This document shows, one piece after another, positions 6,982-62,979 of a stretch of 64,000 nt of DNA. This DNA is from Haloarcula sp. DT43. GTDB taxonomy: Archaea; Halobacteriota; Halobacteria; Halobacteriales; Haloarculaceae. Position 1 is the stretch's first letter. Every line of letters begins with the position of its first letter. The stretch spans positions 558,001 through 622,000 of the forward strand of contig NZ_JAYMGZ010000001.1 in NCBI RefSeq assembly GCF_037078405.1, read 5' to 3'. Position numbers and translations under genes: made by a program. The notes beneath the pieces are model-generated. The model saw nothing but the letters and a program-made list of their open reading frames with translations. It ran no database searches and was not told the origin of the DNA.

Positions 6982-7479
6982 CTAGAACGCGTCCAGCGCC
7001 GCGTGGAGAAACAGTCCGACTGCGAGATGCTGGTGCGCCGACTCCGCGATACGTTCCTCCGCAGCGGCAGCGTCCGCGACGCCGTACTGTTTCGTCTGGA
7101 CGAGTTCGTGTACTCGGAGCGTGCCGTCCGCTTCCAGTTCGTGTAGCCGGGGGTACACTGTCCCCGGACTCAGTTCGGCACCGAACTGTGACTCCAGTTC
7201 GTCCATCAGTCCGGTGCCGTGGGTGCCACCATCGGCGACTGCAATCGTCGCCAGTAGAATCTCCTCCAGGCTCTGTGTGACTAAGCCGTCCTCGACCGCG
7301 AGGTCGCCGCCGTCGAGGTCGTCGATGACCGAATCCAACACCGACTCCGGGATGGCGTCACGACTGGGTGGGTCGTGCGATTCCGGGCGCTCCGTGCCGT
7401 CGAACGGGGTCACTCGCTCGTCGGCCGTCTGGCCCTGTGGTCTACCCGTCGTCACGCGACGGAGGTCGTCTCCGGACAT
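6982..7479 (-). CDS. PadR-family winged-helix transcriptional regulator
   Basis: A 165-residue DNA-binding protein. The C-terminal 100 residues form a PadR-like winged helix: LEEILLATIAV, HGTGLMDELESQFG, then the recognition-helix block LSPGTVYPRLHELEADGTLRV, and a C-terminal helix HLAVGLFLHAAL that should mediate dimerisation. The first 65 residues are polar, Asp/Pro-rich and probably disordered. RosR of Halobacterium, a PadR-type oxidative-stress regulator, has a similar core, but equivalence is only a guess. The start at 7479 is the methionine followed by SGDDLRR; a TATA-like element on the minus strand at 7527-7535 implies a leader of about 25 bases. It is divergent from the next wHTH gene. 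Confidence 0.78.
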   Translation of the reverse strand: MSGDDLRRVTTGRPQGQTADERVTPFDGTERPESHDPPSRDAIPESVLDSVIDDLDGGDLAVEDGLVTQSLEEILLATIAVADGGTHGTGLMDELESQFGAELSPGTVYPRLHELEADGTLRVHELVQTKQYGVADAAAAEERIAESAHQHLAVGLFLHAALDAF

Positions 7480-7580
7480 GGTCTCACCTGAACGCGCTCC
7501 GCGGTGACGGGTACAGGGGCAGTCATGATATAAACAGGGCAGTGTTTTCTGAGCGTGAAACCACCTCAGCGCTCGAAAAC

Positions 7581-7609
7581 GCTTATATAACGCGACACGA
7601 ATCTTCGTG
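7581..7609 (+). promoter_or_regulatory. TATA box and palindrome before the first wHTH gene
   Basis: TATA-like element GCTTATATAA at 7581-7590, about 25 bases before the GTG start at 7612, so a leaderless transcript is expected. A perfect palindrome CACGAA-TC-TTCGTG occupies 7596-7609, between the TATA element and the start codon, the usual place for a repressor site; autoregulation by the encoded wHTH protein is a reasonable inference. Confidence 0.55.
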
Positions 7610-7611
7610 TA

Positions 7612-7962
7612 GTGGCTGAGGAACAGAGCATCGAGGAGATTCTCGACACTATCGGCGACCAGCACGCACGCCGCGTGCTCGCCGCCATCAGTCGGGAACC
7701 GCAGTCGGCGAAGGAACTGGCCGAGGAGTGTGACCTCTCGTTGCCGACGGTGTATCGGCGCATCGAACTGCTCGACGAGTACGACCTCGTCACGGACCGG
7801 ACGCTCGTCGCCGAGGACGGCAACCACTACAAGGTGTACGAGTCGAACTTCGAGTCGACGGTCATCTCGCTCGAAGACGAGGAGTACAAGGTCCGCATCT
7901 ACCGGGAGGAGAATCTCCCGGACCGGTTCAGTCAGCTCTGGGACGAGCTGAACCCCGAATGA
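7612..7962 (+). CDS. ArsR-like winged-helix regulator, paired with DUF7521 protein
   Basis: A 116-residue cytoplasmic winged-helix protein. Helix-turn-helix block: HARRVLAAISREP, KELAEECDLSLPTVYRRIELL, then DLVTDR, with a basic recognition helix; the C-terminal part is an acidic beta/helix region (VISLEDEEYKVRIYRE). It starts with GTG at 7612. The next gene, 28 bases downstream, encodes a small membrane protein of the DUF7521 type. The same two-gene arrangement recurs at 56412-57106 with clear sequence similarity in both genes, so the two products probably work together, for example as a membrane sensor and its DNA-binding partner. The target genes are not known. Confidence 0.8.
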   Translation: MAEEQSIEEILDTIGDQHARRVLAAISREPQSAKELAEECDLSLPTVYRRIELLDEYDLVTDRTLVAEDGNHYKVYESNFESTVISLEDEEYKVRIYREENLPDRFSQLWDELNPE

Positions 7963-7990
7963 GTCCCGCCGTACCTGGAGGCCCGACCGC

Positions 7991-8290
7991 ATGACGACCG
8001 GCGTCGCTATCGCCCGTGGCGTGCTCATCCTGATGCGGATGGTGGTGTTCGGGCTGACGCTCGGCATCACGCTGATTAGCTTCCAGGCCTACCGGAAACG
8101 CCCGTCGGAACGGCTCCAGTACGCGTTCATCGGCTTCGCGTTCATCAGCATGGGCGTCGCCATCTCCAGCGTCATCACGCAACTGAGCGCCGGTGAGACG
8201 GGGGCCCTCGCCCGCGTGTTCTTCCAGATGGCGGAGACGATACCGTTCATCATCGGGTTCGCGATGCTGTACGTCTCGCTGTACCGCTGA
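7991..8290 (+). CDS. DUF7521-type small membrane protein
   Basis: A 99-residue integral membrane protein with three predicted membrane helices (about residues 8-30, 45-65 and 75-97) and short charged loops (YRKRPSERL between the first two). It follows the wHTH gene by 28 bases and is presumably co-transcribed. The similar protein at 56825-57106 has the same length and helix spacing and also follows a wHTH gene. No catalytic motif is visible. The family number is from memory and should be treated as probable; the membrane topology and pairing are directly evident. Confidence 0.75.
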   Translation: MTTGVAIARGVLILMRMVVFGLTLGITLISFQAYRKRPSERLQYAFIGFAFISMGVAISSVITQLSAGETGALARVFFQMAETIPFIIGFAMLYVSLYR

Positions 8291-53702: not shown

Positions 53703-54836
53703 TCAGGTCACCTCAGTAGTAATCGTGTCGATAATGCCGTCCGGAATGTCGTCGATGGGCAGGACGGAGTCCACACAGCCCGTCTCGGCGGCTCGCTTCG
53801 GCATGCCGTACACCGCGGACGTGGCCTCGTCCTGTGCGATGGTCTTGCCGCCGGCCTCCTTGATGCGCCGAATCCCGTCCGCGCCGTCCTCGCCCATTCC
53901 GGTGAGGATGAGGCCAACGAGCGGGTCGTCGATTGTCTCCGCGGCCGTCCGCATCGTCACGTCGACCGCCGGACGGACGCTGTTGACCGGGTCGTCCCGC
54001 GTCAGTTTCGTCCGCAGTCGGCCGTTCCGGTAGTTCTTGACCACCATGTGTCGGTCGCCGGCGGCGACGAGCCCCTCGCCGCCGCCGATGCGCGCCCCGT
54101 CGGTGGCCTCCCGGACCTCGTAGTCGCTTCGCGTGTCTATCCGCTCGGCGAAGCGACCGGTGAACCCTTCCGGCATGTGCTGGATGATGAGCACCCGGAG
54201 GTCCGCCTCGATAGGGAGGTTCGCCATCACCTGCTCGACCATCTTCGGGCCGCCGGTCGACGAACCGATGACCAGCGTGGGGTTCTCGACGTAGGTCGTC
54301 CCGGTCGACGGCGCGTCGGCCGCCCGCCGGCTCGTGGCCGAACCGCCGCCCGCTGCCGGAGCCGTCTCTGCGTCCCGCCCGTCGCTGCTCGTCGTGCCGC
54401 TCGTGGTCGTGCCGGCGCTGCTCTTCGTGCCGACGTCGACCGCCGCGACGGAGCTGACCATCTCGACCAGCTGGTCTTTCAGACGGGACATCTCCATCGA
54501 CACCTCCCCGCCGGGTTTGGTGAAGAAGTCGACCGCCCCCTTGTCGAGCGCCTCGAAGGTCACGTCGGCGTTCTCGTCGGTGTGGGCCGACAGCATCAGT
54601 ACCGGCGTCGGGCACTCCGCCATGATGCGCTCCGTCGCCTCGATGCCGTTCATCACCGGCATCTCGACGTCCATCGTCACGACGTCCGGCCGGTGTTCGG
54701 CGACGGCCGACACCGCTTCCTCGCCGTCGCGCGCCTGCGCGACGACGTCGATGTTGCCATCGCTGAGGATATCAGAGATGACACTCCGCATGAAGTGAGA
54801 GTCGTCTGCGACCACGGCGCGGACACCGCCTGCCAT
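53703..54836 (-). CDS. cheB: CheB chemotaxis methylesterase/deamidase
   Basis: A 377-residue response-regulated enzyme that removes methyl groups from transducers. Receiver domain with D56 (VTMDVEMP), a Ser/Thr/Gly/Asp linker (135-185), and the methylesterase domain with the catalytic triad S193 (GSSTGG), H220 (IIQHMPEGF) and D317 (TGMGEDG). It is the first gene of the minus-strand che block; its promoter faces cheW across a 170-base divergent region. Confidence 0.95.
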   Translation of the reverse strand: MAGGVRAVVADDSHFMRSVISDILSDGNIDVVAQARDGEEAVSAVAEHRPDVVTMDVEMPVMNGIEATERIMAECPTPVLMLSAHTDENADVTFEALDKGAVDFFTKPGGEVSMEMSRLKDQLVEMVSSVAAVDVGTKSSAGTTTSGTTSSDGRDAETAPAAGGGSATSRRAADAPSTGTTYVENPTLVIGSSTGGPKMVEQVMANLPIEADLRVLIIQHMPEGFTGRFAERIDTRSDYEVREATDGARIGGGEGLVAAGDRHMVVKNYRNGRLRTKLTRDDPVNSVRPAVDVTMRTAAETIDDPLVGLILTGMGEDGADGIRRIKEAGGKTIAQDEATSAVYGMPKRAAETGCVDSVLPIDDIPDGIIDTITTEVT

Positions 54837-55006
54837 GTCACCAGCGCTCCCGTTCGACAGGAGTCATCGGCGAACGAGACATCCTCATACCTACTTCCAA
54901 ATCGCGGTCGGCCCCGAAATAAATACTCCGCCCACGTAATCAAAGTTGATAGCCCAGCAGGCACCTTTATGCGCCCCTGTCCGCGAGAGTGTGGACAAGA
55001 ACCGCT
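54837..55006. promoter_or_regulatory. Divergent cheB/cheW promoter region with inverted repeat
   Basis: Both genes start from this region. For cheB (minus) a TATA-like TATTTATTT lies at about 54917-54926; for cheW (plus) CTTTAT lies at 54965-54970. Between them is CGTAATCAAAGTTGATAG (54935-54952), holding the palindrome ATCAA-AG-TTGAT (54939-54950). The half-site CGTAATCA differs by one base from the CGTTATCA motif found at three other places downstream. Confidence 0.5.
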
Positions 55007-55441
55007 ATGGCAGCCCAGTCAGCCACCACCGGCCAGGTACTCGAGTTCCAGCTCGGTTCGGAGACGTACTGCGTGAGCATCGACTACGTGACCGAAATCG
55101 TCGACATCGGCGAACTCACGTCCGTCCCGAACGCCCCGCCACACGTTCGCGGCGTCATGGACCTCCGCGGGCGCACGACCTCGATTGTCGACCCCAAGGT
55201 CGTCTTCGGCATCGACGAGGAGGGCACGGAGAAGCGCATCATCGTGTTCGACCCGGAAATCGTCGAGGAACAGGGTGCGGCCGGCTGGCTCGTCGACGAG
55301 GTGTACCAGGTGGTGCAGGTCACGCCGGAGCAGGTCGACCAATCACCCGCGAACGACGCCGGCTCCATCCGGGGCGTCATCAAGCGAGATGACAGTTTCG
55401 TTATCTGGGTGGACCCCGCCGTCGTCCACGCTGGGGACTGA
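55007..55441 (+). CDS. cheW: CheW chemotaxis coupling protein
   Basis: A 144-residue adaptor that joins transducers to CheA. It has QVLEFQLGSETYCVSIDYVTEIVD, SVPNAPPHVRGVMDLRGRTTSIVDPKVVFG and WLVDEVYQVVQV blocks typical of CheW. The start at 55007 (MAAQSATT) is preferred to a GTG six codons earlier. TATA-like CTTTAT at 54965-54970. It is followed 88 bases later by the KaiC-like ATPase. Confidence 0.94.
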   Translation: MAAQSATTGQVLEFQLGSETYCVSIDYVTEIVDIGELTSVPNAPPHVRGVMDLRGRTTSIVDPKVVFGIDEEGTEKRIIVFDPEIVEEQGAAGWLVDEVYQVVQVTPEQVDQSPANDAGSIRGVIKRDDSFVIWVDPAVVHAGD

Positions 55442-55529
55442 TTCCGGTTCTCTGAGCGGTGTACCAGCAAGACTTTTTAACATTCCCGACAGAGAAGTAT
55501 CTAATCAACTTCCAGTTCCTACCGAAACT

Positions 55530-56255
55530 ATGATTGAGCAAACCAAGACGGGGATTGAGGGCCTCGACGACATTCTAAACGGCGGTATCGTGAAGAACTC
55601 GACGACACTGGTCAGCGGCAACCCCGGTGCCGGGAAATCCATCCTCTGTCTCCAGTACATCTACAACGGCGTCGAACAGTTCGACGAGAAGGGTATCTAC
55701 CTCTCGTTCGAGGAAGACGAGTCGGACCTCCGGGAGGCCGCCGAGTCCATCGGCTTCGAAAACTGGCAGGAACACGTCGACAACGGCGACATCAAGGTGT
55801 ACGACAAGCAGGTGCTCCTGCGTGAGAACGACTTCACCTCCTCGCTGGATATCCTGCTCGAAGAGCTCGAGGACGGCGACTACGACCGGCTCGTGCTGGA
55901 CTCGCTCGCCATGTTCGAACTGTTCTTCGAGGACGAGAAGGAGAAACGGACCTACCTCCTGAAGTTCACCGACATCCTCAGCGACAGCGGCCTCACGACG
56001 CTGATGACCAACGAGCAGGGGGCCGTCTTCCCGGACACCGAAATCGGGCTGGAGAACTACCTCACCGACGGCAACATCTACCTCATCCAGACGCCAACCG
56101 ACACCGGCGTGAACCGGTACGTCTGGGTCGCCAAGATGCGAAAGCAGAACATCGAGACCGACATCTACCCGATGGAGATCGACCGGGGTGGCATCGACGT
56201 CCACCAGAACGCCAGCGCCTTCTCGATGATGAGCGAGGAAGAATCACCAATTTAG
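55530..56255 (+). CDS. Single-domain KaiC/RAD55-like ATPase
   Basis: A 241-residue RecA-superfamily ATPase. Walker A GNPGAGKS at 30-37, Walker B DRLVLDSLAMF near 117, and a KaiC-type Gly-Ile-Glu start (TKTGIEGLDDILNGGI). It is a single-domain relative of KaiC and of the regulatory proteins found near signalling and gas-vesicle genes in haloarchaea. The promoter has CTTTTTAAC at 55473-55481. It lies between cheW and the wHTH gene, so a link to motility is likely, but the target is unknown. Confidence 0.84.
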   Translation: MIEQTKTGIEGLDDILNGGIVKNSTTLVSGNPGAGKSILCLQYIYNGVEQFDEKGIYLSFEEDESDLREAAESIGFENWQEHVDNGDIKVYDKQVLLRENDFTSSLDILLEELEDGDYDRLVLDSLAMFELFFEDEKEKRTYLLKFTDILSDSGLTTLMTNEQGAVFPDTEIGLENYLTDGNIYLIQTPTDTGVNRYVWVAKMRKQNIETDIYPMEIDRGGIDVHQNASAFSMMSEEESPI

Positions 56256-56371
56256 GGACAGAAGTAAGCCATTATTACTCCGTAAAACGACGGGTACAGG
56301 GCCACAGAACTCTATTTCCGAACGAACGACGTGTGGCGCGCGTTCGTCCCTTCTCGACCCGATATCACAGG

Positions 56372-56411
56372 CGATAGCTTTATTATCGACTGAATTTATG
56401 ATTTGATAACG
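56372..56411 (+). promoter_or_regulatory. wHTH promoter with TATA element and CGTTATCA-type site
   Basis: TATA-like CTTTATTAT at 56378-56386 is flanked by the inverted repeat CGATA (56372-56376) and TATCG (56384-56388). The site TGATAACG (reverse of CGTTATCA) occupies 56404-56411, ending at the base before the ATG at 56412. A nearly leaderless transcript is expected and autoregulation is a reasonable inference. Confidence 0.45.
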
Positions 56412-56747
56412 ATGGATTCAGGGGAGATTCTTCAGACGCTTGGCAATAAATACAGCGCCGAAATCCTCGACGCGACGGACGAACCGGTCTCCGCACAGGA
56501 GCTCAGCGACGAACTCGGCATCCCCATCGCGACGTGTTACCGCCGAATCGACGAACTGACCGAACACGACCTGCTGGAACTCCACGACAACATCCTCTCC
56601 GACGACCGCCGGCGCATCAAGGTGTACCGGCGGAACGTCGACGAGGTCCGGGTCGACTTCGACGACGAACTGACCATCCACATCGAGGAACGGTCGGAAG
56701 TGACCAACAAACTCGACGAGGCGTGGCGAACCCTGTCCGAGCGATAA
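56412..56747 (+). CDS. ArsR-like winged-helix regulator next to archaellin genes
   Basis: A 111-residue winged-helix protein similar to the one at 7612-7962. Its HTH block reads SAQELSDELGIPIATCYRRIDEL, with a basic recognition helix (CYRR) and an acidic C-terminus. The start is ATG 56412, just after TGATAACG. The next gene, 77 bases downstream, encodes a DUF7521-type membrane protein, and the archaellin gene follows. A role as a regulator of archaellum expression is suggested by position and by the repeated motif, not by any direct evidence. Confidence 0.8.
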   Translation: MDSGEILQTLGNKYSAEILDATDEPVSAQELSDELGIPIATCYRRIDELTEHDLLELHDNILSDDRRRIKVYRRNVDEVRVDFDDELTIHIEERSEVTNKLDEAWRTLSER

Positions 56748-56760
56748 AGACCCTCTTACC

Positions 56761-56805
56761 CCCGTTATCAACAGAGATATTTTCGAGCGTGGATTTAATA
56801 ACGGG
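56761..56805 (+). promoter_or_regulatory. Inverted repeat overlapping the DUF7521 promoter
   Basis: Arm CCCGTTATCAA (56761-56771) and arm TTAATAACGGG (56795-56805) are inverted copies that match at 10 of 11 bases with a 23-base spacer. The right arm contains the TATA-like TTTAATAA (56794-56801), about 25 bases before the start at 56825. Binding at the arms would control the following gene; this is inferred. Confidence 0.5.
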
Positions 56806-56824
56806 TTCGCTGTAGCACAGTACA

Positions 56825-57106
56825 GTGCTGATGATAGAACTTCTCTACGCCATCTCGACGCTGGTGTTCGTCGTGGCCGGACTGACAATGGTCGGGATGG
56901 CCATGCGGGCGTACGTGCAGACATCCCGGCAGGCGATGCTCCACCTCTCGGTCGGGTTCTCGCTGGCTATCGCGGGCGCGGCCGCGACGATGATTAGCGC
57001 GTTCATCAACGACTTCGAGGGCGTGCGGTCGCTGCTGCTGGTCAACAGCGGTTTGACGACTTTCGGATATCTCTTTGTCATGTACAGTCTGGTCACCTAC
57101 GAGTGA
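56825..57106 (+). CDS. DUF7521-type small membrane protein (second copy)
   Basis: A 93-residue membrane protein with three helices (about residues 4-27, 38-58 and 70-90) in the same layout as the protein at 7991-8290, and with a charged first loop (RAYVQTSRQ). It follows a wHTH gene in both cases. GTG at 56825 or ATG at 56831 can be the start; both are shown by the same frame. It sits 243 bases before the archaellin gene. Confidence 0.72.
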   Translation: MLMIELLYAISTLVFVVAGLTMVGMAMRAYVQTSRQAMLHLSVGFSLAIAGAAATMISAFINDFEGVRSLLLVNSGLTTFGYLFVMYSLVTYE

Positions 57107-57349
57107 CTCGCTATTCGAGCGGTCGACTCCTCGCTCGGAACCCCGAAGAATTAATTTTCAATACTGATTCCGGGTTTCACGCCGGTTTCCTACACTGCCG
57201 AGATATCGGCTCTCATCGACGCTGAATACTTTCGGGTATCGCAGCCTAAACCGGCTGAAACACTCGTTATCAGGAATAAAATTTTGAGGGATGGTGTTAT
57301 TAGGTGGTACGTATTTGTTCCGATAGGGTCAGAGCGACCCGGACTACAC
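57107..57349 (+). promoter_or_regulatory. Archaellin promoter region with CGTTATCA site
   Basis: The 243 bases before the archaellin ATG contain no gene. CGTTATCA occurs at 57265-57272, directly followed by an AT-rich AATAAAATTTT stretch (57275-57285) that could be the TATA element; the leader would then be about 40 bases. An AT-rich block also lies near 57155. Confidence 0.45.
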
Positions 57350-58747
57350 ATGTTCGAACGCATTACAAATCCAGAAGACCGAGGCCAAGTGGGTATCGGG
57401 ACCCTCATCGTGTTTATCGCGATGGTGCTCGTCGCCGCAATCGCGGCCGGCGTCCTGATAAACACTGCTGGCTTCCTGCAGAGTTCAGCTGAACAGACCG
57501 GCCAAGAGAGTAGCGACCAAGTGACCAACCAGATTCAGGTAGCGTCGAAGATTGGGTCTGTCGCGGGCTCGGGTCCGACCGAGACCATCGTCTTCGACAG
57601 CTCCGGCGCGTCTACCGGGTCCCCCGGTGAGTTCGCAATTAGCTCCGGGGACTCACTCGAAGTCGCCGTGACGACTTCCGGTGACGCGACCTCCCTTGCC
57701 CTGCAAGATTCGGGCGGGAGCAGTAATCAGGTCGCAGTCCAGGACGGGGACTCGATAGTCTTCGAGAGTGAATCCGCTTCCTCCGTCACCGTGCGTAACG
57801 AGCGCACCGGTGCGACTTTCACTCTGACCAACGACCTCGACCTGGTCGAAACCGCCGGTGGTGGCGCGAGCGCGGACGGTGTCACCCTCCGCCGCACGTA
57901 CACCGACCCGATTAACGGTGACGTGACGCTTCAGACCCTGGAACTCCAGGACGGTCAGGGTAACGACGACGACGTCGTCGTCGAAATCGGCGAGAACACG
58001 GAACAGTACATCCCCCTCACCGGTGACAGCAGCGGGAACATCATCGTGAGCGACGGCGAAGTGCTGACCGCCTCGAGCGCCGGTGACGACTCGACGCTCG
58101 CGCCCAACAACGGCCAGGGTAGCCTGGACGTCGACCCGAACGACAACATCCGAATCGACGTCGTCTCGGAGGACGAGATTCAGCTGACTAACGAAGAGAC
58201 GGGTGCGACCCTCTCCTTCGACCCGTTCAACAGCAACCTCGCTGTGTCCGGGACCGCGGTCACGCTCGAGAACAGTGCCGGAACGACCGCTGCAGCCACC
58301 AGTGGTGGCTCGTTCTCCGGACTTGCGGGTGACGACATCAACTCCGGGCTCTCCACCCCTGCGCTGCTGGTCAACGAAGAGTACAGCGCTGGCGGCGGCG
58401 GTGTCTCCGAAATCAGCATCATCGCTATCAAGGGCTCCGGTGCTGACCAGATTAACCTCGAACAGACGACCATCACCACCATCGGCCCCGACGGTACGAA
58501 CACGCTGACCTACGGTGGCGGCAGTGCCACCGAGGACGAGACGTTCGGTGTCCAGGCCGTCCAGGACGAGGACGACTCGCTCCCGGTGATGACCGACGCT
58601 GACCGCTTCCGCATCATCGTCAACCCCGGCACGCTCGAAACCGGTGAGACGATGACGCTGGAAGTGACCACGGAGTCCGGCGCGACCACCGAAATCCGGA
58701 TCAGCGTGCCCAACACGCTATCGGGCGAAACTGCGGTGCAGGTCTAG
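57350..58747 (+). CDS. arlB: Archaellin with long variable insert
   Basis: A 465-residue archaellum filament subunit. The class III signal is clear: a short basic-acidic leader [12 protein letters not shown], with cleavage expected before [13 protein letters not shown], and the hydrophobic helix that forms the filament core follows. The C-terminus ends with [18 protein letters not shown], usual for haloarchaeal archaellins. Typical archaellins have 190-250 residues; here the central domain (about 70-440) is some 200 residues longer, Ser/Thr/Asp-rich and outward facing. N-glycosylation sequons (NxS/T) are few. It may form a thick, surface-decorated filament. Confidence 0.92.
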
Positions 58748-59264
58748 GCTTCTTTCGACTGCAGCGGCTTTTTCTCTGTTTTCCACCCGCCCAGCGACAG
58801 CCATCCCGTGCAGTTGCCGGGGCTCGTCTGCGCTGGTTTCGTGACGACTCTACTCGTGACTACTGCACCGTGTACCGCGGCGACGTCTCCGCTTTCACGC
58901 CATTTCAACGGCGACGAGCCAACCCACGCTGTGATTCAGTCGGAAGTGCTACGTCGGACAGGATGAATCCGTACCGGCGGTGTTCGCGCACTGCCTCGCG
59001 GTCGGTGCGGGTCCCGCCCCTGACCGCGACGTGAGACAATGCCGCCGGCGCAACGACACGGGGCCACTCGTGGCGCGAACGGCACCACGACTTCAGGGCT
59101 CGTTACGTCGACGGGGGCGACTGCACCAGTCTCCGTACAAATGAACGGCGACGCGTCACAGTGTGGCCGGCCGCCGCCGGCGAACTGGGGCGTCGAGAGC
59201 GCGCTGCCAGTCACGACGGAGCGCGCCGTCACACACGAGGTCCCGGCCGACGTCGGCGAGGCCG
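58748..59264. other. 517-base gene-free region between archaellin genes
   Basis: No convincing gene. Two open frames of about 85-100 codons (59039-59293 plus and 58936-59232 minus) overlap each other and have compositions unlike neighbouring genes. The first 45 bases after the archaellin stop are T-rich (CTTTTTCTCTGTTTTCC) and could be the end of the transcript. I see no clear repeat, tRNA or remnant of a known gene. Confidence 0.5.
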
Positions 59265-59861
59265 TCAGACGGCGACCGTCGTCTTCCCGGTGAGCGACGA
59301 CGGGACGGAGATTCGGACTCTCGTCGTCGCGCCGTCGGGCGAGAGCAACCGTATCGTCCCGCTCTCGCTGGGCCGGAGTTCGACCCCCGTCAGCGCCGCG
59401 AGGTCGATTCGCAGCGCCGCCCGGTCGCCGTCGTCGTTCAGAACCCCCCGCGCCAGCGAGTCGTCGTCGTCCGCGAGCGCGGTAAGCGAAACCTCGGTCG
59501 CGGAGCCCACTGGCGCCTCGGCCCCGCTGCCGATTGTCGTCCCGACGACGACGTCGTTCAGGTCCATGTTTCCGCCCCCCTCCGCCCGCTTGACGACGAG
59601 CGTCACCGCGTCGACGGTCTCGCCGGTGGTATTGACGTGGCCGGTGGACCCGACGACCACGGCCCGCGCGATGACCCGGTCGGCGCTCTTGTCGCTGGCT
59701 GTCGCGGCGTCCGATTGAAAGCCGCCGACGACCTCGAACAGCACCCCGGCCGTCGCCGCGGCGATAAGCAGCGCCGCGATGAGGAGGATTATCGACCCGA
59801 CGGAGCTTTGCGCCCGCCGTTCCCTGGCCGTTCGCTCCCGTCGCCGGTTCGGTTCGCTCAC
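59265..59861 (-). CDS. Archaellin-like protein on the opposite strand
   Basis: A 198-residue protein with a long basic leader (MSEPNRRRERTARERRA), a cleavage site after Ala17 and the helix QSSVGSIILLIAALLIAAATAGVLF, then GFQSDAATASDKSADRVIARAVV, a variable Asp/Gly domain, and a C-terminus VRISVPSSLTGKTTVAV close to that of the long archaellin. It is thus a class III pilin/archaellin relative, with GTG start at 59861. The leader is much more basic than in true archaellins, so it could be a minor subunit or a pseudo-archaellin. It faces away from the next plus-strand operon. Confidence 0.78.
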   Translation of the reverse strand: MSEPNRRRERTARERRAQSSVGSIILLIAALLIAAATAGVLFEVVGGFQSDAATASDKSADRVIARAVVVGSTGHVNTTGETVDAVTLVVKRAEGGGNMDLNDVVVGTTIGSGAEAPVGSATEVSLTALADDDDSLARGVLNDDGDRAALRIDLAALTGVELRPSESGTIRLLSPDGATTRVRISVPSSLTGKTTVAV

Positions 59862-59948
59862 AGTTACGGATACCGACGACCGGCCAAAACCGTGTCGGCT
59901 ACCCCGAGCAGCGACGGAATTATATCATCCCCTCTCCCATGTCTTTGC

Positions 59949-60524
59949 ATGGCCTCGGGGTCAGACGAACCGAATCCGGAAGACGGGAAGATACTCTCCC
60001 CGGAGGAGCTAGACATCGCGGACGACGAGCACGTCACGGAGATAGACGAAGGCCGGTACGTCGTCTCCTCGGACGTGCGGACCGACGATTCGTACGGCAA
60101 TCAGGTGCCGTCTGACTCCACGCCGGACCCGGCACCGGAACCGGAGCCGACTCCCGAACCGGAGACGCCCGAGTTCACCGACGCGAACGTCCACGCGTGG
60201 CTCGCCGAACAGATGGCCGAGTCGAACAGTCGCTACGGGTTCGACGTGACCGCGAAGTTCGACGGGAACGTCGACCAGCAACAGGTCGTCTCCAACGACA
60301 TCATCACCGCCTTCGAGAGCTTCATGCTCTGGTACGGCCGGCAGATGGACGGGTCGACGTCGGTCGAAGACGTGCTCGGCATCCTGCTCTCGGAGTCGAA
60401 CGTCCCGGTCAAACACCCGCCCGAGAGCTTCAAGCGGATGGTCAAGTCGACCGGCCTCTCACCAGACGACAGCATCGCGGACCTCGTCGAGGCTGTCGAG
60501 GCCCGCGACGGCGCGACGTTCTAG
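59949..60524 (+). CDS. DUF7500-like acidic protein upstream of cheY
   Basis: A 191-residue protein. Residues 1-35 contain KILSPEELDIADDEHVTEIDEGRYVVSSD, a hallmark of a haloarchaeal family (DUF7500 from memory), followed by a proline-rich acidic linker and a C-terminal helical domain (WLAEQMAESNSRYGFDVTAKF, VSNDIITAFESFMLWYGRQ). It is near cheY and in the same direction (145 bases). A role in taxis or cell-surface sensing is possible, but nothing in the sequence shows it. Confidence 0.72.
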   Translation: MASGSDEPNPEDGKILSPEELDIADDEHVTEIDEGRYVVSSDVRTDDSYGNQVPSDSTPDPAPEPEPTPEPETPEFTDANVHAWLAEQMAESNSRYGFDVTAKFDGNVDQQQVVSNDIITAFESFMLWYGRQMDGSTSVEDVLGILLSESNVPVKHPPESFKRMVKSTGLSPDDSIADLVEAVEARDGATF

Positions 60525-60631
60525 TTCCGCCGGAAACCGGGCCAGTCGAGCCTGCCACTGCGGCCGGAATCGGCGCGCAGTTGCCCGGTTTCGGTGCCCA
60601 CCGATATCACACGCGATAATTTACGGGACAC

Positions 60632-60641
60632 CTTTATTTAA
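60632..60641 (+). promoter_or_regulatory. Promoter of the cheY-cheC-cheD operon
   Basis: TATA-like CTTTATTTAA at 60632-60641, about 30 bases before the ATG at 60670. A short leader is expected. Confidence 0.6.
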
Positions 60642-60669
60642 CTCATCGCGATATGTAGCCTTGATAGGC

Positions 60670-61029
60670 ATGCCAGACGTACTGATCGCCGACGATTCAG
60701 AGTTTATGCGTAACCTCCTCCGCGAGATTCTCGAAGAAGATCACGAGATCGTCGGGGAGGTCGAAAACGGAGTCGAAGCAGTCGAAGTGTTCAAAGAAGA
60801 GACCCCGGACCTGGTGATGATGGACATCGTGATGCCCATCCGCGATGGCATCGAAGCCACGGACGAAATCAAATCCGCCAATCCCGACGCGAACGTCATC
60901 ATGTGCACAAGCGTCGGCCAAGAAGAGAAGATGAAGGAGGCGGTGAAGGCGGGTGCGGACGGCTACATCACCAAACCGTTCCAGAAACCCAGCGTGATGG
61001 AGGCTATCGAGGACGTCGTCCCCTCATAG
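60670..61029 (+). CDS. cheY: CheY response regulator
   Basis: A 119-residue receiver that carries the phosphoryl signal from CheA to the archaellar motor via CheF. D8 and D9 in ADDSEF, phosphoacceptor D52 in MMDIVMP, T80 in CTSVG and K102 in TKPF are in place. The start at 60670 (MPDVLIADD) is preferred to a TTG three codons upstream. The next gene, cheC, begins directly after the stop. Confidence 0.96.
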   Translation: MPDVLIADDSEFMRNLLREILEEDHEIVGEVENGVEAVEVFKEETPDLVMMDIVMPIRDGIEATDEIKSANPDANVIMCTSVGQEEKMKEAVKAGADGYITKPFQKPSVMEAIEDVVPS

Positions 61030-62247
61030 ATGAACGTCGATATTCAGTCGCTGGGCACGTTCAACCAACTCGCTCACGAGGGAGCGGAACAGGCCACGCG
61101 GTCGATGGGCCAAATGACGGGCATCGACGCCGTCGTCGACGTGACGAAGATAACGCTGCTCGACAGAGCGGACGTCGGCGAGGAGCTCGCCGACCGCGAC
61201 TTCGTCGGCGTCGGGTTCTCCTTCGACGGCGTCCTCGAGGGGGACACCGTCCTCGCGTTCGACGTGGACAGCGCCGGGACGATAACCGAGGAGATGATGC
61301 CCGGCAGCGGCGACGACGCGGCGATGGCCCGTAGCTGCATCGAGGAGGTCGGCAACATCATGATGAGCGGGTTCATCGACGGCTGGGCCGACTACGTCGG
61401 CGCGACCATCGACCACTCGCCGCCGGAGTACATCGAGGGCTCCGGGGCCGAGATTCTCCCCGACGCACCCGAGGACGGCGACCATCAGCAGGTGTTCGTG
61501 TTCAAATCGGAGATAGAGTGGATAGACGAGTCGGTGAACTTCTACATCTACATGCTCCCCGGGTACGAGTCGCTCACGGAGATGATGGTGGAACACGTCG
61601 ATACGGACGGCGACGCCATCCCCATCGACAAGCTCCAGACGTTCAACGAGATGACGACCAGCGGTACCCAGAAGGCCGCCGACAACGTCGAGATGATGAC
61701 CGGCATCCCGACGGAGTCGGAGGTGACCCAGATTAGCTTCGCCCCCATCGAGGACGTGCCGAAACAGATAGGGACGGACACCTTCGTCGGGACGGTCGTC
61801 GAGTTCACCGGGACGCCGAGTGGCTACCTCATGGTGCTTTTCGACGAGGTCTCGGCCATCAACGTCGCGGAGGCGATGATGCCAATCGAGATGGACGGCG
61901 ACGAGCTGACCGACCAGCACAAGGCCGCCATCGAGGAGCTGGGCAACATCATGACAAGCGGGTTCGTCGACGGCTGGGCGAACGTGCTCCAGACGTCCGT
62001 CGAGCACACGCCGCCCCGCGTCGTCCACGACATGGGGCGGGCGATAATGGACCCGCTGGCGGCCCAGGTCGGCCAGTACCAGGAGCACGCGTTCATCATC
62101 GACTCCCAGATGCGGACCGACGACATCGAGTTCCAGGCGGAGATTCACGCCCTGCCGAACGAGAAGGAACTGCGTGCCGCCCTCGACGATCTCGACGTCG
62201 AGCGGGCGACCGAGACTGACGCGGACGTCGAACAGATATTCAAATAA
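61030..62247 (+). CDS. cheC: CheC-type CheY-P phosphatase, two domains
   Basis: A 405-residue protein with two tandem CheC domains (about 1-195 and 205-400). Each carries the ExxN signature: EEVGNIMMSGFIDGWAD near residue 115 and EELGNIMTSGFVDGWAN near 300, so both centres look intact. CheC dephosphorylates CheY-P and binds CheD. It starts immediately after the cheY stop, and its own stop overlaps the cheD ATG by one base, as expected for a complex-forming set. Confidence 0.93.
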   Translation: MNVDIQSLGTFNQLAHEGAEQATRSMGQMTGIDAVVDVTKITLLDRADVGEELADRDFVGVGFSFDGVLEGDTVLAFDVDSAGTITEEMMPGSGDDAAMARSCIEEVGNIMMSGFIDGWADYVGATIDHSPPEYIEGSGAEILPDAPEDGDHQQVFVFKSEIEWIDESVNFYIYMLPGYESLTEMMVEHVDTDGDAIPIDKLQTFNEMTTSGTQKAADNVEMMTGIPTESEVTQISFAPIEDVPKQIGTDTFVGTVVEFTGTPSGYLMVLFDEVSAINVAEAMMPIEMDGDELTDQHKAAIEELGNIMTSGFVDGWANVLQTSVEHTPPRVVHDMGRAIMDPLAAQVGQYQEHAFIIDSQMRTDDIEFQAEIHALPNEKELRAALDDLDVERATETDADVEQIFK

Positions 62248-62768
62248 TGAAAGTATACGACGGCAGCCAAACGGAGAGTCCCGCACAGAGTACGCCGGAG
62301 CGCATCAAAGTCGGCATCGCGGAGTACAAGGTCACGACGGAGCCGGCCCTGCTGACCACCAGCGGCTTGGGTTCCTGTATCGGTATCGGGATACACGACC
62401 CCCGCAACGCGGTCGCCGGACTCGTCCACGTGATGCTCCCGTCGGCGGCTGACATCGACGGCGGGAACTCCGCGAAGTTCGCGGACACGGGCGTCGAAGC
62501 GCTCATCGAGGCCATGGAGGACGCCGGCGCGGCGACGGACACGATGGAGGCCAAAATCGCCGGCGGGAGCGACATGCTCGACTTCTCCGAGAACGGGTCC
62601 TCTATCGGCTCGCGCAACGCCGAGAAAGTCCGTGAGACACTCGACGCGTTCGGCGTCCCAGTCGTCGGCGAGGACCTCGGCGGCGACCACGGCCGGTCGG
62701 TCAAGCTCGAAGCCGACACCGGCAACCTCATTGTCAAAAGCGCGAACACAGACTCGATAACGCTGTGA
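62247..62768 (+). CDS. cheD: CheD receptor deamidase
   Basis: A 173-residue glutamine deamidase that tunes transducer activity. Catalytic Cys44 in GLGSCIGIGI and His61 in LVHVMLP are present, followed by AKIAGGSDMLDF near 105. The first 15 residues are an unconserved acidic extension. It is the third gene of the cheY-cheC-cheD operon and overlaps cheC by one base. CheC binding would remove CheD from receptors. Confidence 0.93.
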   Translation: MKVYDGSQTESPAQSTPERIKVGIAEYKVTTEPALLTTSGLGSCIGIGIHDPRNAVAGLVHVMLPSAADIDGGNSAKFADTGVEALIEAMEDAGAATDTMEAKIAGGSDMLDFSENGSSIGSRNAEKVRETLDAFGVPVVGEDLGGDHGRSVKLEADTGNLIVKSANTDSITL

Positions 62769-62947
62769 CGTGGGGGCCACCCGAAACGCATGAACCCGGC
62801 GTCTGACGGCTGGCTGCCGCCCGTCTGCCGGGGGCGCGCCCACCGACTCCGTTTCACAAGTCCTCGACTGGAATTAATTTGAAATGTAACAGGCTAGTAC
62901 TTGGAGTGTTAATTTACGCTATCTGAGCCAGGAAAATGGGATATTAT

Positions 62948-62979
62948 TATCAAATATGATACGCTAAGGGGAATATTCA
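62948..62979 (+). promoter_or_regulatory. Palindrome and TATA element before arlCE
   Basis: TATCA-AATA-TGATA (62948-62961) is a perfect palindrome, preceded by a T (TTATCA) and followed by CG (TGATACG). An AT-rich GGAATATTC (62971-62979) lies 28 bases before the ATG at 63008 and could be the TATA element. The palindrome's half-site resembles the CGTTATCA motif near archaellin and che genes. Confidence 0.45.

Follow-up and report, generated by a model that had tools for sequence, protein, structure and literature searches.

The window analysed here, a stretch of 64,000 nucleotides from the genome of Haloarcula sp. DT43, carries two gene pairs, at 7612-8290 (copy 1) and at 56412-57106 (copy 2), each consisting of a gene for a winged-helix regulator followed by a gene for a small membrane protein of the DUF7521 family. 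The question raised by copy 1 is whether such a pair is a functional unit, whether it is mobile, and what the membrane protein does for, or with, its regulator. In the reading preferred here, to which a probability of roughly 0.55 is assigned, copy 1 is a paralogue of an ancient, vertically inherited regulator operon, in which the DUF7521 protein would be a membrane sensor controlling its winged-helix partner. Family membership, operon structure, linkage, paralogy, the motif difference and the predicted folds were all computed, and the coordinates of the features are collected in the table.

The product of the first gene of copy 1 scores 45.2 bits against PF12840 (HTH_20; cut-off 27), and its AlphaFold2 model (pLDDT 87) shows a winged helix and, after it, a beta hairpin and a C-terminal helix, for which the best match in the PDB is Phr (2P4W, E 2.6e-6), with CzrA/SmtB also among the best. 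By this match above cut-off and by its ArsR/Phr-like fold, the protein is an ArsR-like winged helix. It shows no Pfam match to the AsnC ligand-binding domain (PF01037) and therefore does not belong to the Lrp/AsnC family, its HTH_AsnC-type match being weak (16.6 bits; cut-off 27); a PADLOC assignment to Csa3/CARF (35 bits) was rejected, as the match reflects the common HTH part. Since the TATA box lies about 25 nt ahead of the GTG, the mRNA of this gene is probably leaderless, and the BRE/TATA region CGAAAACGCTTATAT is conserved among the congeners. The product of the second gene reaches 41.0 bits against PF24365 (DUF7521; curated cut-off 27) and is modelled (pLDDT 90) as three long helices, with which a structure search returned no significant match, the best hit (E 0.54), a complex II anchor, being a three-helix bundle of generic type. 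In the DUF7521 proteins K+R amounts to 3.6 in loop 1 versus 0.1 in loop 2, these loops being basic and neutral, respectively, in copy 1. Following the positive-inside rule, the basic loop 1, which holds AYRR, and the C-terminus would be cytoplasmic, so that the most conserved motif of the family is predicted from the sequence to lie on the cytoplasmic side, with the N-terminus out.

Table. Features of the two pairs and of their surroundings in the window
Feature	Position	Strand	Basis or remark
PadR-family regulator, divergent from copy 1, conserved neighbour	6985..7479	-	PF03551, 32 bits, cut-off 27
Candidate operator TTTCTGAGCGTGAAA, TTTCA-N5-TGAAA type, between the divergent promoters	7546..7560		De novo search and conservation
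TATA box TTATATAA of the copy 1 promoter	7583..7590	+	Read directly
Copy 1 winged-helix DNA-binding protein, ArsR/Phr-like	7612..7962	+	GTG start, 116 aa; PF12840 HTH_20
GGAGG, Shine-Dalgarno sequence of the copy 1 DUF7521 gene	7977..7981	+	Read directly; expected for an internal operon gene
Copy 1 DUF7521 membrane protein, three helices (3-36, 40-65, 72-98)	7991..8290	+	ATG start, 99 aa; PF24365
CsmR-type site between cheB (-) and cheW (+)	54938..54951		1 mismatch
cirA-like KaiC ATPase	55530..56255	+	PF06745, 167 bits
CsmR-type site TATCACAGGCGATA upstream of csmR	56363..56376		Conserved in Haloarculaceae
Copy 2 winged-helix protein, CsmR orthologue	56412..56747	+	PF12840, 48.6 bits; Haloferax csmR clade
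CsmR-type site TATCAACAGAGATA ahead of the DUF7521 gene of copy 2	56766..56779		
Copy 2 DUF7521 membrane protein	56825..57106	+	PF24365, 33.2 bits
Archaellin (arlA)	57350..58747	+	PF01917, 100 bits
CsmR-type site upstream of cheY (60661)	60605..60618		
CsmR-type site before the next arl genes	62948..62961		Exact motif TATCAAATATGATA

A preliminary description of this DNA had held that the two pairs match in both proteins and in gene order. The same two Pfam families, PF12840 and then PF24365, are indeed found in the same order at both places, but the membrane proteins match only at the level of the family: the winged-helix proteins share 31% of their residues across 107 aa (E 6e-15), and the DUF7521 proteins are 13% identical in an alignment and give no significant BLASTP match (E 0.12), both of them nevertheless exceeding the Pfam cut-off (41.0 and 33.2 bits), so that the profiles place them in one family rather than leaving them unrelated. 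Judged from these comparisons, copy 1 and the pair at 56412-57106 are distant paralogues, and the latter is not a recent copy of the former.

The regulator of copy 2 is, by clade, by its archaellin and cirA neighbours and by its binding motif, identified as the orthologue of CsmR (HVO_1209), a protein published in 2026 that regulates both motility and cell shape in Haloferax volcanii and binds TATCA(N4)TGATA, a motif obtained by ChIP-seq (PMC13286277). In a tree built from 72 winged-helix proteins, with inner forks that are weak because few columns were available, the copy 2 protein falls into one clade of 23 (SH-aLRT 100) together with the archaellin-linked Haloferax csmR; this clade takes in the Haloferax loci L240 and L245, H. 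volcanii itself lying outside the set. Copy 1 belongs to a separate group, 17 of whose 19 members form one clade (support 89), and, being outside the CsmR clade and having no CsmR-type site upstream, does not qualify as a CsmR orthologue. A de novo search for inverted repeats in the upstream regions of the csmR clade put TATCA(N4)TGATA at the top (15 of 25, against 4 at most in shuffles), and this recovery of the published motif in front of csmR orthologues validates the method. With up to one mismatch the motif occurs six times in the window versus 0.07 expected, all six lying within 54770-62961 and one of them inside the start of cheB, and 45 times in the whole 3.75-Mb genome; the six near-matches in the che/arl region constitute a predicted CsmR regulon in Haloarcula, that is, outside Haloferax. 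The site before the copy 2 DUF7521 gene is retained in all nine congeners and in most members of the family, and this gene seems to possess a separate promoter along with its CsmR-type site. In some genomes of family f4 (L105, L106, L095), the csmR-linked DUF7521 gene stands on the opposite strand and heads the archaellin genes. The different DNA specificity proposed earlier for the two paralogues is well supported by motif counts, the csmR loci (226 kb) holding 82 CsmR-type motifs and the copy-1-type loci (203 kb) 3.

The view that the two genes form a functional unit rather than a chance neighbourhood is borne out by their linkage across haloarchaea. A csmR-like winged-helix gene stands immediately upstream in 83 of 100 haloarchaeal DUF7521 loci, a sample made up of the own genome, the best-scoring loci and others down the listed ranking, in which the weakest unlisted hits are under-sampled; the two genes thus co-occur regularly rather than rarely. 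Outside the own genome, 89 loci gave 72 winged-helix matches immediately upstream of DUF7521 and 1 elsewhere; within that genome, none was obtained at 27 other 3-kb places, the three pair-holding places being excluded. The neighbourhood is thus far beyond chance and marks the pair as a unit, 13 of the 83 paired loci carrying two DUF7521 genes in tandem. Over 157 pairs, the genes overlap in 59 and are separated by gaps of at most 30 nt in 44, and in 102 the DUF7521 gene is preceded by a Shine-Dalgarno sequence. The distances between winged-helix proteins correlate with those between their DUF7521 neighbours (Mantel test on 71 pairs, r 0.70, a value of 0.14 being exceeded by none of 5000 permutations); within the own genome the two matrices are uncorrelated (seven pairs, r 0.12, p 0.32), these pairs being saturated and too diverged. 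Fusions of the two genes, looked for as proof of interaction, were absent from about 200 loci. The pairing is not obligatory: 17 of the 100 DUF7521 loci have no winged-helix neighbour, and no DUF7521 gene adjoins the Haloferax csmR orthologues. DUF7521 itself is present in 43 of 44 good genomes of the order and at about 10 places in the own genome (E <0.001), in line with the general small regulatory system of haloarchaea that had been suggested. That this system was undescribed holds for DUF7521 and its pairing with a winged-helix regulator, of which a literature search found no description, and fails for the CsmR branch, which has already been published (PMC13286277).

The suggestion that the unit is mobile did not survive the comparison of neighbourhoods. 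Orthologues of copy 1 are 76-99% identical throughout its own family and extend into other families, with DUF7521 downstream on the same strand in 47 of 50 copy-1-type loci; within the family, the divergent padR gene stays beside them in the genus of copy 1 and in several further genera, and it does so beyond the family at L126-L129, which belong to a different one. In most of the family the pair is followed by uvrD. By these conserved surroundings, copy 1 is assessed as vertically inherited beside the divergent padR. An addiction-like element, in which a winged-helix antitoxin or repressor and a small membrane toxin spread together between replicons, would fit the occurrence of pairs on megaplasmids as well as on chromosomes and the numerous, patchily distributed paralogues. 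It is nevertheless highly improbable, given that the padR neighbour persists across families and uvrD within the family, that the orthologues track the family in their identity, that neither phage matches for the module nor PHROG or PADLOC matches for DUF7521 were obtained, and that one genome (G003) keeps both genes unlinked, the winged-helix gene at L060 and the DUF7521 gene alone at L336.

As to the site at which the copy 1 regulator might act, the preliminary description had pointed to the palindrome CACGAATCTTCGTG, which is present letter for letter at 7596-7609 and even extends to ACACGAATCTTCGTGT (7595-7610). As an operator it was nevertheless rejected, for the palindrome lacks conservation in all eight congeners, whose homologous 16-mers pair at only 4-5 of 7 positions, and palindromes with 6-bp arms occur in 12%, and those with 7-bp arms in 3.6%, of random 60-nt stretches of the window; it is probably due to chance. 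A better operator candidate, on the evidence of comparative sequence, is the inverted repeat at 7546-7560, which is retained in all nine congeners. Its type, TTTCA(N5)TGAAA, was the top inverted repeat of the de novo search (10 of 23 copy-1-type orthologous upstream regions; shuffles at most 5), and a site of this type occurs in 23 of 50 copy-1-type upstream regions, as compared with 1.2% of 170-bp stretches taken at random. Across the own genome the motif shows no enrichment (30 versus 26 in the control), so that any copy 1 regulon would be small, and a genome-wide search for such a regulon gave no coherent genes. The lack of enrichment is also compatible with the repeat being the site of the divergent PadR regulator, the copy 1 winged-helix protein acting elsewhere; the repeat sits between both promoters, and padR is also present in most of the orthologues that bear the site. 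This assignment is considered rather unlikely, as the copy-1-type loci L138 and L141 carry a site with one mismatch where no padR was detected, a weak point in itself. Elsewhere in the own genome (L226:1501-1533, C2), two adjoining TTTC(N7)GAAA-type sites lie in a divergent promoter that serves another winged-helix gene, and these are possibly a second target or the site of another regulator.

Outside haloarchaea the membrane protein keeps a different company. Relatives of DUF7521 in methanogens and other euryarchaea, which score 22-41 bits with an in-house profile and mostly lie near the Pfam cut-off, stand behind an Lrp/AsnC regulator (PF01037, PF13404) at 16 of 16 loci (L319-L334), and have a third conserved protein on their other side, the three forming a conserved trio; one member of the third protein weakly matches ATC_hydrolase and MetOD1. 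The kinship of the membrane proteins inside and outside haloarchaea is supported by a profile comparison (E 1.3e-7), and one genome (G212) holds two further loci of the haloarchaeal type, without the Lrp/AsnC trio. Since DUF7521 is found beside two different regulator families, its linkage suggests that it acts with a regulator, and argues that the conserved feature is "regulator plus DUF7521", the family of the regulator varying.

In the mechanism that is proposed, the copy 1 winged-helix protein would bind as a dimer to an inverted repeat near its own promoter, likely the one at 7546-7560, and would thereby govern its own operon and possibly also the divergent padR gene. The three-helix DUF7521 protein would sense the state of the membrane or of the extracytoplasmic space and bind its cognate winged-helix protein, either holding it at the membrane as a tether or antagonist or altering its DNA binding. 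The dimerisation, the DNA binding by copy 1, the contact between the partners, the sign of the regulation and the signal are inferred. The model is supported by the linkage in haloarchaea, the Lrp/AsnC linkage beyond them, the correlation of distances, the autoregulatory motifs, the predicted cytoplasmic position of AYRR and the precedents discussed below. Counted against it are the 17 DUF7521 loci without such a neighbour, the absence of fusions and of a correlation within the own genome, the working of CsmR in Haloferax without an adjacent DUF7521, the apparent separate promoter and CsmR-type site of the copy 2 DUF7521 gene, and the chance that the copy 1 site is PadR's. The last but one of these observations, a CsmR-type site directly before a DUF7521 gene, is also what would be expected if DUF7521 were a mere regulated effector in envelope, metal or redox homeostasis, with an autoregulated winged-helix repressor or activator receiving no feedback from it, and solo DUF7521 genes beside P-type ATPases, as well as modules beside CopZ/CopA, plastocyanin or MMPL genes, can be read in the same way. 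This chief rival has a real, if minority, claim; against it speak the trailing of one membrane family behind two different regulator families, the fact that every winged-helix type keeps its own DUF7521 type, and the predicted cytoplasmic position of the most conserved motif. A regulator with a dedicated membrane partner is regarded as the more probable of the two readings, both of which fit the data.

Precedents for such a partnership exist in bacteria. The LytTR Regulatory Systems (HdrRM, BrsRM; PMC6193735) likewise consist of a two-gene operon with a DNA-binding regulator followed by a small membrane protein, with several paralogues per genome and an autoregulatory site before the operon; they differ in having direct repeats instead of the inverted repeats seen here and a different membrane protein, and inhibition by DUF7521 is presumed. 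No LytTR domain was matched in the copy 1 proteins with Pfam, and the pair is accordingly not a LytTR Regulatory System. In SdpR/SdpI of Bacillus subtilis the gene of an ArsR-type autorepressor is followed by that of a membrane protein, SdpI, which sequesters the repressor SdpR (PMC1626106); for the DUF7521 module no toxin ligand is known. CsmR resembles copy 1 in its winged-helix family, Phr (2P4W), the heat-shock regulator of Pyrococcus furiosus, being the nearest solved structure of both, but copy 1 falls in a separate clade, is remote from motility genes and has a promoter without the CsmR motif; the CsmR paper reports no membrane partner (PMC13286277). The copy 1 winged-helix protein reaches 23.3 bits with the NCBIfam model of SdpR, far from its cut-off of 100, and DUF7521 gave no match with SdpI models, so that the pair is not a member of this system either. 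With about 200 aa, Phr carries an additional C-terminal part, and to our knowledge a DUF7521 partner is absent from its description.

Few membrane-to-promoter routes are known in archaea outside two-component systems, and if DUF7521 controls its winged-helix partner, a haloarchaeon would possess several such channels. How signals reach CsmR is an open question of the CsmR paper (PMC13286277), and DUF7521 would, on the same condition, be a candidate for this input in species in which it stands beside csmR. What emerges looks like a widespread, largely undescribed coupling of the archaeal membrane to gene control. A more far-reaching idea is advanced tentatively, at somewhat less than even odds: DUF7521 would be the hallmark of a class of transcription control in archaea that is coupled to the membrane and predates the haloarchaea. 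In it, a dedicated three-helix sensor or antagonist would work with a soluble winged-helix regulator, ArsR/Phr-like in haloarchaea and Lrp/AsnC, with the third conserved protein, in methanogens and other euryarchaea. Each cell would have many parallel channels of this kind, and through one of them, the input to CsmR, motility and cell shape would be reached.

Several loci vary the arrangement or its surroundings. Copper as a common theme was rejected as a general explanation, CopZ/CopA neighbours being present at only 5 of the 83 pair loci. In the own genome, a winged-helix gene and two DUF7521 genes directly precede CopZ and a heavy-metal P-type ATPase (L004:808-3240, C8), and a similar trio adjoins a plastocyanin gene on a Haloarcula plasmid (L312). 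An MMPL-like transporter lies beside DUF7521 at L008, again in the own genome, and at L314, the upstream winged-helix gene of L008 being seemingly broken or strongly diverged (18-bit partial match). At four further loci (L041, L149, L151, L153) a solo DUF7521 gene without a winged-helix neighbour is located near the end of a P-type ATPase gene.
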